Assembly: GCF_011317445.1 (NCBI RefSeq)
Contig: NZ_JAAAPL010000001.1
Coordinates: 806,001 to 870,000, forward strand
DNA: 64,000 nucleotides
Direction: 5' to 3'
Origin: Chelativorans multitrophicus
GTDB lineage: Bacteria; Pseudomonadota; Alphaproteobacteria; Rhizobiales; Rhizobiaceae
Positions 14,843 to 52,742 of this stretch are shown here, piece after piece (position 1 is the stretch's first letter; the number at the start of each line of letters is the position of its first letter). Made by a program: the position numbers and the translations under genes. The notes below the pieces were generated by a model. That model did not search any database, was not told the origin of the DNA, and worked only from the letters and a program-made list of their open reading frames with translations.

Positions 14843-15004
14843 CACCCCCCTCTGGCCTGCCGGCCATCTCCCCCTCAAGGGGGGAGATCGGCTGCCACGA
14901 TTGCTTTCGCCGAGTTTCACCGTTGCTGTGTCCATGCTGAAGCAAGCGGTCGGCGTAATCTCCCCCCCTGAGGGGGAGATGGCCGGCAGGCCAGAGGGGG
15001 GTGT
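14843..15004. repeat. Inverted pair of GGCC-type two-hairpin repeats
   Basis: Each unit has a small hairpin (GGCC-TGCC-GGCC) next to a larger C-rich/G-rich hairpin of the form ATCTCCCC...GGGGAGAT. The left unit is 14843-14888 and the right one, in opposite orientation, 14959-15004, separated by about 70 bases of unrelated sequence. The pair fills the gap between ispH and thrB on the minus strand, so any termination here would be inside a probable operon. Equivalent pairs occur at 23111-23274 and inside glyS at 49511-49635. Confidence 0.85.
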
Positions 15005-23110: not shown

Positions 23111-23274
23111 CGCGCCCCCCTCTGGCCTGCCGGCCATCTCCCCCACGAGGGGGGAGATCGGCTGTCATCAGCACTTTCGCCAATCACTGGCGTTGCAGAA
23201 AGAGTGGAGAGACGGCGGCCGGCATAATCCCCCCCCTTGTGGGGGAGATGGCCGGCAGGCCAGAGGGGGGCGCG
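23111..23274. repeat. Inverted pair of GGCC-type two-hairpin repeats
   Basis: The same element as at 14843-15004, in the 360-base gap between ialB and tldD. The left unit is 23111-23158 and the right 23227-23274; both keep the GGCC-TGCC-GGCC mini-hairpin. The loop of the large hairpin differs (ACGA here against TCAA there) while the stem is kept. The rest of the gap shows no coding frame I trust; the tldD leader lies at its right end. Confidence 0.85.
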
Positions 23275-49075: not shown

Positions 49076-51361
49076 TCAGCCAGCGATCTTCGAGAAATCC
49101 GCCACCCGGCCGGTCGCCTCGCGAATGCGCTGCAGGAGCGCCAGGCGATTTGCGCGAATTGAATCATTCTCGTCATTTACGAGGACTTTTTCAAAGAATG
49201 AATCAATCGGCTCGCGAAGCGCGGCAAGCGCCGTCATGGCGGCGGAAAAGTCTTGTTTCTGAATCGCTTCGCCGGCTTCCTTCTCGGCCTGATTCACCGC
49301 GCTGAAAAGCCTGATTTCCTGCTCTTCCTTGAGAAGCGCGGGATCGACGGCTTCCGCAATCCGGGTACCCTTCTTCTCCTCGGCCGCGAGAATATTGGCC
49401 GCGCGCTTGGTGCCCGCGAGCAGGTTCTGGCCCGTCTCCGTGCCCAAGAGATCGGAAAGCGCTTCCACGCGGCGGACGATCAGGAGGAGGTCATCGTTGG
49501 ATGAAGGCGTGATCTCCCCCCTTGAGGGGGAGATGCCCGGCAGGGCAGAGGGGGGTGTGACAGACTGAGATGTTGGCGGGACAGCGCCCCCCTCTGTCGC
49601 CTTCGGCGACATCTCCCCCTCAAGGGGGGAGATCGGGCGGCCACTCGCCAGCACCGCGTCGATGAGATCGTGCCGGGCACCTTGATCGCGGAGATAAACC
49701 TTCAGCCGGTCATGGAAGAAAGAGAGGAGGTCTTCCGTATTCTCGGCGCTCACATTCCTAGCTTTGCGGAACGCTTTCAAAAGCGCCAGCCTTACCCCAT
49801 TCTCCACCACAATCCTGATCACGCCCAAGGCAGCGCGGCGAAGGGCGTAGGGGTCCTTCGAGCCCGTCGGCTTCTCGTCGATAGCCCAGAAGCCCACAAG
49901 CGTGTCGAGCTTGTCGGCGAGTGCCACGGCCACGGAAACCGGATCGGTCGGCACGATGTCGGATGGGCCGAGCGGCTTATAATGCTCTTCAAGAGCGCGG
50001 GCGACAGACGGGTGCTCGCCCTGGAGCTCGGCATATTTGCGGCCCATGGCGCCCTGAAGCTCGGGGAACTCGCCCACCACCTCGGTCGTAAGGTCCGCCT
50101 TGGCGAGCACCGCCGCGCGCTCGGCCAGATCCGGGTCCGCGCCCACAATCGGAGCAAGTTCGCGCGCCAACCGGCGGATGCGCTCAACCCGCTCGCCTTG
50201 GGTGCCAAGCTTGGCATGGAAGGTAACGTTCAGATGTTCGAGCCGCGCCATGCGCTGGTCGAGCGGCTTGTTCAGGTCGAGGCCAAATTTCTCTGCCGAG
50301 CCTTTCAGCCGGTCGATGTCCGGCAGGTCGGCCTGGTCCGTCTTCCAGAAGTAGAGCGCGTCGGACAGGCGCGCGCGCACAACCTTGCCGTTGCCGTAGG
50401 CGATCTCCTTGCCGCCGTCCGTGGCCTCGATATTGGCCGTGATAATGAAGCGGTTGGAGAGCTTTTCCAGCTCACCTTGCGGCCGCGTGACAAAACATTT
50501 CTGATTGGCGCGGATGGTCAGGCGGACGACCTCGGCCGGGATCTCCAGATAAGCCTCCTCGAATTCTCCCATCAGTACGACCGGGTACTCAACAAGGCCG
50601 GAAACCTCTTCCAGAAGCCCCTCGTCCTCGACCAGCTCAAGGCCGTTGGCGAAGGCGAGGTTCTTCGCATCGTCCAGGATGATGTGCTTGCGCCGCTCGG
50701 CGTCGAGCACGACCTTCGCCTGCTCCAGCTTCTCCACATAGTCGTCGAAGCGGCGCACGGTGATGGCTTCAGGCGCGTGGAAGCGATGACCATAGGTGAC
50801 GTTGCCCGCGCGGATGCCGTCGATCTCGAAATCGACCACCACCGGCTCTTCCGTTTCCGGGCCAAAGGTGCAGACGATGGATTGAAGCGGGCGCACCCAG
50901 CGCAAGCTGCCGGGATTGCGGGAGGCCTTGCCCCAGCGCATGGATTTGGGCCATGGAAAATTGCGGATGACGGCAGGCATCAGCTCGGCGATGATCTCCT
51001 CGGCCGGCCTGCCATTCTTTTCGATCACCGCGACGTAAAACCCACCCTTCTTGGGGTCGGTGTGCACGTGCGCCTGGGCAATATCAGTGAGGCCGGCCTT
51101 GCGGAGGAAGCCTTGTATCGCCTGTTCCGGCGCGCTGGTCGACGGCCCCTTGATCTCCTCACGCACATCACGGGAGCGGGCGGTGACGCCGCGGATATCG
51201 AGCGCCAGGCGGCGGGGGGTCCAGTATTCGGTCGCCGCCTCATAAGTGAGGCCCGCTTCCACCAGACCGTCGGTCACGAGCTTCTTCAGGTCGCCCGCCG
51301 CCTTGCGCTGCATGCGGGCGGGGATTTCTTCGCTGCGAAGTTCAAGAAGAAGGTCGGGCAT
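49076..51361 (-). CDS. glyS: Glycyl-tRNA synthetase beta subunit, with repeat-derived insertion
   Basis: Beta subunit of the tetrameric bacterial glycyl-tRNA synthetase, 761 residues against 689 in E. coli. The N-terminal [15 protein letters not shown], the central [10 protein letters not shown] and the C-terminal HDLIDAVL and [13 protein letters not shown] helices are clear. Between those last two helices, residues of about 576-618 (from ISPLEGEM to SRGEITPSS) are encoded by an inverted pair of palindromic repeats, yet the frame stays open and homology resumes after it. The insertion lies in the anticodon-binding region, presumably in a surface loop. glyQ is upstream but separated by about 420 bases. 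The start MPDLLLEL is the family start. Confidence 0.95.
49511..49635. repeat. Inverted pair of palindromic repeats inside glyS
   Basis: The left unit (49511-49557) and the right unit (49584-49635) are in opposite orientation, each with the large ATCTCCCC...GGGGAGAT hairpin and a small hairpin. The small stems are GCCC/GGGC on the left and GTCGCC/GGCGAC on the right, differing from GGCC/GGCC in the intergenic copies yet fully paired. The whole element is translated in frame as part of glyS. Confidence 0.9.
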
Positions 51362-51600
51362 GGATTGTTCTCGTGTGCGGGCTCGCGCGGGCAATAGCAA
51401 ACTCGACCGGCCGCTGAAACCTTTTTGTAACGGAATTGGAAACATCGGAAACGCTTACGATACAGCCGAATCAAAAGAAACGTTGCCTTCCGTGTCGGAT
51501 CGGCGGGCGATCGTCCGTCCTTGGAGCGAAATCACTCAACCCCAAAGAAAGGCGCTGAAGCACGAGCGCTTCAGGCGGCGAAGCTTTGTCCGGAACGGCC
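51362..51600. other. Gap between glyS and glyQ
   Basis: Part of a 424-base separation between two genes whose products form one enzyme. It contains a hairpin, CTGAAGC...GCTTCAG (about 51555-51574), with no T tract, and leads into a small rightward reading frame. I see no promoter boxes I would defend. Confidence 0.4.
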
Positions 51601-51785: not shown

Positions 51786-52742
51786 TCAGGCGGCAGTCGC
51801 CAATGTGGCCCCGCCTCCCTCGGTGTTGAGAAAAGCTTCGCCGCAGGCTTTCGCCAGATCGCGGACGCGCAGGATATAGCTCTGCCGCTCCGTAACCGAG
51901 ATTACGCCGCGAGCATCCAGAAGATTGAAGACGTGGGAAGCCTTGATGCACTGGTCGTAGGCCGGGAAGACCATGCGATGTAGCGCGGCATTGTCGCTAG
52001 GGCGTGGCGCGCCGGCTTCAAGAAGCGCACGGCATTCCCGCTCCGCATCCTCAAAGTGGCGGAAAAGCATTTCGGTATTCGCATATTCGAAATTATGCCG
52101 CGAATATTCCTGCTCGGCCTGCAGGAAAACCTCGCCATAGGTGACTTTGTCCGAGCCTTCGAGCCCGTTGAAATTCAGATCGTAGACATTGTCGACGCCC
52201 TGCACATACATGGCCAGCCGCTCGAGCCCATATGTCAGCTCGCCGGAAACTGGGGCGCATTCGATGCCGCAGACCTGCTGGAAGTAGGTGAACTGGGAAA
52301 CCTCCATGCCGTCGCACCAGCACTCCCAGCCGAGCCCCCAGGCGCCGAGCGTGGGGCTTTCCCAGTCGTCCTCCACAAAGCGGATGTCGTGCAGCAGGGG
52401 GTCCAGCCCGATGGCGGCAAGCGAGCCCAGATAGAGCTCCTGCAGGTTGGGCGGGTTGGGCTTCAGGATCACCTGATATTGGTAATAATGCTGCAGCCTG
52501 TTCGGGTTTTCACCGTAGCGACCGTCCTTCGGCCGGCGCGAAGGCTGCACATAGGCCGCGTTCCACGGGCGCGGCCCCAGGGAGCGGAGCGTGGTCGCCG
52601 GATGGAAGGTGCCCGCGCCCACCTCCATGTCATAGGGCTGGAGGATGACGCAGCCCTGCGCCGCCCAATAGCTGTGCAGCGTCAGGATCAGGCCCTGGAA
52701 GGACCTGGAGGGATGCATGTGCGGAAGGGCGCTGGCGTTCAC
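51786..52742 (-). CDS. glyQ: Glycyl-tRNA synthetase alpha subunit
   Basis: Catalytic alpha subunit of the alpha2-beta2 glycyl-tRNA synthetase. It has 318 residues. Class II motifs are visible: [39 protein letters not shown] and [16 protein letters not shown], followed by [15 protein letters not shown]. The GTG at 52742 is preceded by GGAGAA; an in-frame ATG at 52721 is possible. glyS follows on the same strand. Confidence 0.97.

Follow-up and report, generated by a model that had tools for sequence, protein, structure and literature searches.

Recurrent in-frame palindromic repeats of several families, mainly in two aminoacyl-tRNA synthetases, traced from an insert in the glyS gene of Chelativorans multitrophicus

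The window, the whole 64,000-nucleotide stretch that was analysed (Chelativorans multitrophicus, assembly GCF_011317445.1, contig NZ_JAAAPL010000001.1, positions 806,001 to 870,000), contains glyS, the gene for the beta subunit of glycyl-tRNA synthetase (GlyS). About 45 additional residues of this protein (575-619) are encoded by two inverted palindromic repeat units that lie inside the coding sequence (Table 1). G000 denotes the source genome (4.8 Mb) and L001 the window's own GlyS locus; other L numbers are loci and other G numbers are genomes.

Table 1. Features of the glyS region and related repeats in the window
Feature	Position	Strand	Remarks
glyS, glycyl-tRNA synthetase beta subunit	49076..51361	-	761 aa including insert; TIGR00211, PF02092, PF05746
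Stop codon of glyS	49076-49078	-	
Translated insert, GlyS residues 575-619	49505..49639	-	predicted to be disordered in model; between body and anticodon-binding domains
Repeat unit 1 (coding order)	49587..49635		tail 49587-49595, small hairpin, palindromic head 49610-49634
Repeat unit 2 (coding order)	49511..49555		palindromic head 49511-49535, small hairpin, tail 49547-49555
Spacer separating the two tails	49556..49586		varies more among relatives than the units do (by eye)
glyQ, alpha subunit	51786..52742	-	intact, directly upstream of glyS; NCBIfam glyQ
Intergenic family A copy	14843..15004		tail-out pair
Intergenic family A copy	23111..23274		tail-out pair

The insert falls within a single open reading frame (ORF; 49076-51445, with the start placed by homology at 51361). 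The inverted arms, 49511-49535 and 49610-49634, are 25 nt long and 100% complementary, and the RNA of the insert is predicted to fold at -93.4 kcal/mol, compared with a mean of -59.1 for shuffled sequences (z -7.9); none of 200 dinucleotide shuffles folded as well. Like bacterial interspersed mosaic elements (BIMEs), the pair consists of two palindromic units that face opposite ways across a spacer, and the 25-bp arms at its ends are terminal inverted repeats like those of miniature inverted-repeat transposable elements. In the protein, the insert sits between two Pfam domains, tRNA_synt_2f (residues 4-572) and DALR_1 (651-748). An AlphaFold2 model of GlyS had a mean pLDDT (predicted local distance difference test score) of 85.5, with values below 50 at residues 575-619, between helices 564-572 and 625-639, and this segment is probably disordered. 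The first-pass annotation, which had described an inverted repeat pair in frame inside glyS that adds roughly 40 residues between two conserved C-terminal helices, was borne out on both points by the single open frame, the 25-nt arms, the 26 family units in the genome and the position in the model. It had named an inactive glyS paralogue as something that would undermine the case; there was a single glyS match in the source genome and glyQ is adjacent, and therefore a paralogue or pseudogene is unlikely. The region 49511-49634 gave 16 Rfam matches, all far below the gathering scores and mostly to eukaryotic microRNA models, whose low E-values arise because strong hairpins mimic them, and an Rfam identity was rejected.

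The units belong to a repeat family, here called family A, that is dispersed in G000, with 25 units found by a strict pattern and 26 by a relaxed one; the pattern read backwards had no occurrences in that genome. The GlyS pair is head-out, with the palindromic heads outermost and the AGAGGGGGG tails inside, whereas the two intergenic copies, 14843-15004 and 23111-23274, have the tail-out order, and therefore the GlyS pair is not simply the same composite element within a gene. The earlier assignment of all three to one family stood, with this correction as to arrangement. The window also has palindromes of the form ATCTCCCCCTTGGTGGGGGAGAA, at 120-143, 215-238 and 2408-2431, that resemble the family A heads but are distinct from them.

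GlyS sequences from relatives were aligned to determine how widely the segment occurs. Family A was found in five of the 29 readable GlyS from the first 30 loci, four of them in the same genus (L001, L002, L003, and L005) and one in another genus (L004). Among 80 named loci it was found in Mesorhizobium sp. SOD10, M. escarrei, Aquibium, Jiella, and Aureimonas glaciei. Many relatives had 4-11 residues at the junction between the two domains, most Rhizobium, Ensifer, and Shinella sequences had only a few residues there, and others had unlike repeats. Judged from these alignments, the GlyS segment is an insertion, as the first-pass annotation had proposed, and an ancestral loop was rejected; the finding that would have refuted that proposal, one and the same segment in every relative, was not obtained.

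An 81-residue core spanning the site was matched in 289 of the 297 sampled genomes of the family. Two core matches were found in 60 genomes, and after removal of two with two gene copies and one with a gene split over contigs there were 57 with long inserts; 57 of 289 is a lower bound, with the 229 one-match genomes only partly listed. One-match genomes that were fetched included two with repeats (G303 and G128; L216 and L225) and two with short remnants (G170 and G274; L231 and L232). In all 57 inserts the two halves shared one stop-free frame, although the halves had been searched for separately. A rapid maximum-likelihood tree was built from 183 GlyS without the insert columns and with rows enriched for carriers; it required at least 34 presence/absence changes, 23 of them forced by starred branches, and at least 48 class changes, gains and losses being indistinguishable in these counts.

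Seven rough repeat classes, defined from our own peptide motifs, accommodated 54 of the 57 junction inserts; the other three (G143, G173, and G290) fit none. The heads of B, C, and E resemble one another. Class A was the most frequent, with 25 inserts, followed by D (10), E (4), H (4), B (3), F (3), and C (1), and there was one mixed insert each of B+C, A+E, A+H, and C+E. Some inserts look nested or joined (D then A in L225, C then B in L171). Within the source genus alone, GlyS had class A in four species (L001, L002, L003, and L005), B in one (L008), and H in one (L012), with no junction insert in nine (L006, L007, L009-L011, L013-L015, and L024). Only classes A, B, and D were seen as dispersed repeats in their hosts. 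Family D, with the insert of G071 as query, had 76 BLAST matches in G071, 57 in G232, 57 in G165, 31 in G073, 18 in G139, 14 in G248, 4 in G087, and 0 in G000, and family B had 30 in G139 and 5 in G015; these counts cover both strands, so that one palindrome may count twice. By sequence comparison, the junction loop of GlyS is used repeatedly by several repeat families.

Two further loops of GlyS contained repeat inserts, each in more than one genus, at residues ~292-299 and ~403-410. Among 108 full-length GlyS, six had clear inserts near 292-299 (L062, L065, L070, L088, L107, and L133) and two were ambiguous (L080 and L114), and repeats followed residue 406 in L061, L070, and L133. A motif test found carriers in 61 of 183 rows covering the junction, 20 of 182 covering the second loop, and 12 of 173 covering the first. 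By the same test, one site was occupied in 47 of the 183 GlyS, two in 17, and all three in 4; the Aquibium GlyS (L070) has three inserts and is 944 aa long. The AlphaFold2 model, with residue numbers taken as equal to those of L009 up to ~529, places the two additional sites in short loops, one linking strands 290-294 and 304-309 and the other linking helices 388-406 and 410-419.

GlyS also has a second hypervariable insertion point, not made of repeats, at residues ~529-543 (window ~49733-49777). Extra runs of 14-116 residues occurred there in 51 of the 108 full-length relatives (52 runs). By eye, many of these runs have no visible likeness even inside one genus, but some distant rows are alike there (L003 and L062, Mesorhizobium sp. 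Root554), as if cassettes had been swapped. The glyS region is repeat-rich overall in G139, G087, and G073, with repeats directly upstream of the gene in G139 and G087 (L438 1432-1555; L439 1440-1556, turned) and directly downstream in G073 (L386 2360-2490).

Repeats inside other proteins were sought by fetching 60 stretches with repeats, two of them taken from the family B search, and looking for ORFs that span the repeats. Fifteen spanning ORFs were tested for protein families: six were real genes with an internal repeat, seven had no family, and two (L350 and L366) had a domain to just one side of the repeat. The six real genes encoded isoleucyl-tRNA synthetase (IleS; G071, G232, and G165), UvrD/PcrA (G071 and G139), and CobN (G165). 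The UvrD/PcrA proteins of G071 and G139, which are from two genera, have the same residues flanking the repeat, in one loop. Repeat-like inserts of several classes were present in 20 of 50 IleS, in two loops, each used in more than one genus, after residues ~337-341 and 481; these proteins came from 60 carrier genomes, 30 as returned and 20 chosen for a long span, and the fraction is not a rate. In the source genome, long ORFs over other family A copies had no Pfam domain in eight of the nine tested, and one was nitrate-reductase-like: L031 (G000:C1:96226-96267) is nitrate-reductase/formate-dehydrogenase-like and has an in-frame tail-out family A pair between molybdopterin domains. As controls, Dxs and AlaS of the same 61 relatives were examined. 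Paired hairpin units were found in none of 30 Dxs and none of 30 AlaS loci, with single hairpins in 3 and 4, and no listed full-length Dxs or AlaS match from the 61 relatives had an insert of about 40 aa (largest excess ~20). The same scan of GlyS found both heads in L001, L002, L004, and L005 and one intact head in L003, and missed the repeat of L008, which was recognised by its peptide only.

The frame in which the repeats are read was compared with the alternatives. In family A GlyS inserts (n=30), the used frame was open in 30 of 30 and the other five frames in 8-19. The peptide of the used frame had a net charge of -1.9 and 0.4 W/F/Y/C residues, compared with charges of +13.0, +3.4, +8.0, -4.2, and +9.3 and 3.0-4.9 W/F/Y/C for the other five. 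The 14 in-gene family D copies that were compared, which included 8 of the 13 D-type GlyS inserts, all shared one frame by their printed peptides. Three other frames were open in 9-11 of the in-gene copies with an anchor (n=12), and in the intergenic copies (n=27) the used frame was open in 19 and two other frames in 25 and 23. The frame use of family D is consistent with a filter at the protein level and is not proof of one, because the in-gene copies evolved in place. Weighing against such a filter, the CobN repeat is read in another frame than the other in-gene copies, and two D-type GlyS inserts from outside the compared set, L218 and L223, are read partly in another frame.

Sequence change within the inserts was compared with that in the flanks for 16 related pairs; these pairs overlap, the counts are small, and some pairs perhaps do not represent one insertion. 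Synonymous difference was lower in the insert than in the flanks in 15 of the 16 (0.13 vs 0.41 for L001/L003), while non-synonymous difference was higher in 13 and lower in three. The ratio of non-synonymous to synonymous difference was raised in the insert in 15 of 16, and therefore there seems to be little constraint on the insert peptide. By eye, the palindromic units are almost frozen among relatives and the spacer is free. The two heads were identical in 15 of the 23 family A inserts with both heads intact, compared with a shuffle mean of 6.1 (0 of 10000 shuffles reached this number), and 14 of 37 family A rows had fewer than two intact heads. Covariation of the two heads was considered as a test and was not decisive, matched heads having several possible causes, kinship included. 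Possible causes of this slow change and of the matched heads are gene conversion, a switch of template at the hairpin, a recent replacement, and selection on structure, each of which might account for them.

The in-gene copies of family D also resembled one another. Outside CobN, 13 of 14 were nearest to another in-gene copy (4 of 10000 label permutations), often one in another gene or genus: the GlyS repeats of G139 and G248 were 0.97 identical, and those of IleS in G071 and GlyS in G139 0.95. In G165 the intergenic copies are alike, and the two GlyS copies reach at most 0.76 to any of them. The CobN repeat was nearest to intergenic copies (0.95). The limits of this comparison are an in-gene query, related copies, and the absence of a compared intergenic copy in four of the seven in-gene genomes, and the mean identities are not striking (0.77 for in-gene copies between genomes and 0.77 between in-gene and intergenic copies of the same genome). 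This likeness hints at a sub-lineage adapted to coding sequence.

We assign a probability of roughly 0.68 to the explanation that a dispersed pair related to repetitive extragenic palindromic sequences (REPs) and BIMEs was inserted in frame into glyS and is one survivor, in a permissive loop, of widely inserting repeats. An inverted pair of REP/BIME-like units would have entered, in frame, the loop that joins the GlyS body to the anticodon-binding domain. The repeat families of each host, whichever are present, would insert widely and at random by way of a putative mobiliser, and selection would leave in essential genes those copies that hit a flexible loop and keep the frame, most of which would be read as disordered peptide of neutral to acidic charge, with few aromatic residues and little cysteine. 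The permissive refuges would be the three loops of GlyS, two of IleS, and one of UvrD, and GlyS would presumably keep its normal function. The few suitable loops would be struck repeatedly over time, sometimes by nested or successive families, and after insertion the palindromic units would change slowly in DNA while the spacer drifts. GlyS thus has the look of a place where repetitive DNA can settle safely time after time and then be translated. The first-pass suggestion that such a repeat can land in genes and survive translation is supported.

Several results weigh against this explanation. The full family A pairs of G000 comprise seven tail-out, one overlapping, and one head-out, the GlyS pair, and insertion of the common composite would not predict this rare order. 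No match to the mobiliser PF01797, of the REP-associated tyrosine transposase (RAYT) type, was found in G000, and there was one partial match among 13 members of the genus (its own included). No target-site duplication was visible at the insert junctions viewed, where no close empty allele was compared base by base. The frame of family A could be accounted for by stop codons only, and synonymous divergence is lowered by more than neglect alone predicts. Outside GlyS the search went by way of open frames, which frame-breaking copies in other genes would escape; the IleS sample was selected as described above and includes more carriers than the set used for Dxs and AlaS.

Recurrence at the same loops would also be expected if the loops were DNA targets, that is, if a mobiliser preferred a sequence or structure in glyS, ileS, and uvrD. 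The occupation of several sites in one gene and the repeats adjoining glyS upstream (G139, G087) and downstream (G073) fit such targeting, but classes with unlike ends occupy the same loop and there is no obvious DNA motif common to the flanks of the hit loops (by eye; no motif search was made), and we regard it as unlikely. It is rather improbable that the insert is useful, either as a hairpin that slows the ribosome at a domain boundary and so aids folding or through a role of the peptide. The strong hairpin, its place at a domain junction, the excess of identical heads, and the reduced synonymous divergence would all agree with a useful insert, and E. coli REPs near a stop codon stall ribosomes, according to the portion of PMC5082802 covered, citing Liang 2015. 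Against it, many relatives have no insert, part of the family A rows have fewer than two intact heads, peptide changes are tolerated, and matched heads are also expected from insertion as a matched pair or from gene conversion, with kinship included in the count.

A further alternative is that there were few original insertions and that insert-bearing glyS alleles spread by horizontal transfer or recombination. Family A inserts across genera have unit sequences in common, and in part also the 3' flank GGCCAATC, and transfer of a short stretch around the GlyS loop may have occurred. However, family A by itself calls for at least 20 changes on the insert-free tree, of which starred branches force 17, and unlike classes occur at one site within single genera, so that spread of alleles as the general cause is very unlikely.

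A more specific possibility, which we hold only tentatively and regard as somewhat doubtful, is that Rhizobiaceae harbor a coding-adapted palindromic sub-lineage that moves from gene to gene via synthetase and helicase loops, mostly in one benign frame, with the loops as its refuge. If true, it would be a continuing source of new disordered segments in essential enzymes. The first-pass annotation had raised the idea of a repeat selected to be translatable, which is partly supported; it is favored by the single frame of family D, though others are open, and by the 13 of 14 nearest in-gene copies, and disfavored by the frames of L218, L223, and CobN. Beyond what was noted there, the comparison found many repeat families at the site and repeats in IleS, UvrD, CobN, and a nitrate-reductase-like protein. 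A single curiosity thereby becomes a replicated natural experiment, in which unlike repeats have gone, in many separate insertions, into a shared set of loops in a few essential enzymes. This makes it possible to test how selfish repeats become protein sequence, which positions tolerate inserts of about 40 residues, and whether repeats adapt to translation.

Rickettsia palindromic elements (RPEs) are not known to share sequence with the GlyS repeats, and BIMEs are paired inverted REPs of enterobacteria. The GlyS pair shares with BIMEs two inverted palindromic units and a spacer, and differs from them in sequence, host, and its location in coding DNA. The rhizobium-specific intergenic mosaic element (RIME) and Brucella Bru-RS, compared by name only, are likewise palindromic, dispersed, and found in the same order of bacteria; RIME differs in being intergenic, according to its title. 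RPEs, as described in the portion of PMC10969869 covered, are palindromic repeats of ~150 bp found in frame inside unrelated proteins of an alphaproteobacterial host. The GlyS repeat shows the same mode, being dispersed, also present in frame in proteins, and absent from orthologues, and the likeness drawn by the first-pass annotation was right as an analogy. The differences are the host order, the relatives found here being Hyphomicrobiales, and the re-use of particular loops in two synthetases by several families.

REPs with GTAG/CGTC tags have been described within ORFs that include tRNA synthetases, a UvrD/REP helicase, and repair genes, where they add 20-82 residues, and different REPs occur at about the same recB site in two Xanthomonas species (PMC3733652, in the portions covered). 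They resemble the present repeats in lying inside synthetase and UvrD-type helicase genes. They differ in that the GTAG/CGTC tag was absent from both strands of all 26 family A units (only family A was examined) and in that no RAYT gene was found in G000. The words 'glycyl' and 'isoleucyl' are absent from the main text of that paper, whose target ORFs stand in its Additional file 3, outside the part covered, and several families recurring across many genera are not described in the portions covered. Among the titles and abstract beginnings covered in the open-licence literature, none reported repeats within GlyS or IleS of rhizobia. In-frame palindromic repeats in Rickettsia and intragenic REPs in genes including tRNA synthetases and a UvrD-type helicase are thus already known from the portions of these sources covered. 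What the present comparison indicates is the recurrence of in-frame repeats of several families, mainly in two aminoacyl-tRNA synthetases, and, within the literature covered, the use of one loop of an essential synthetase by unlike repeats in about one fifth of the sampled species is new.
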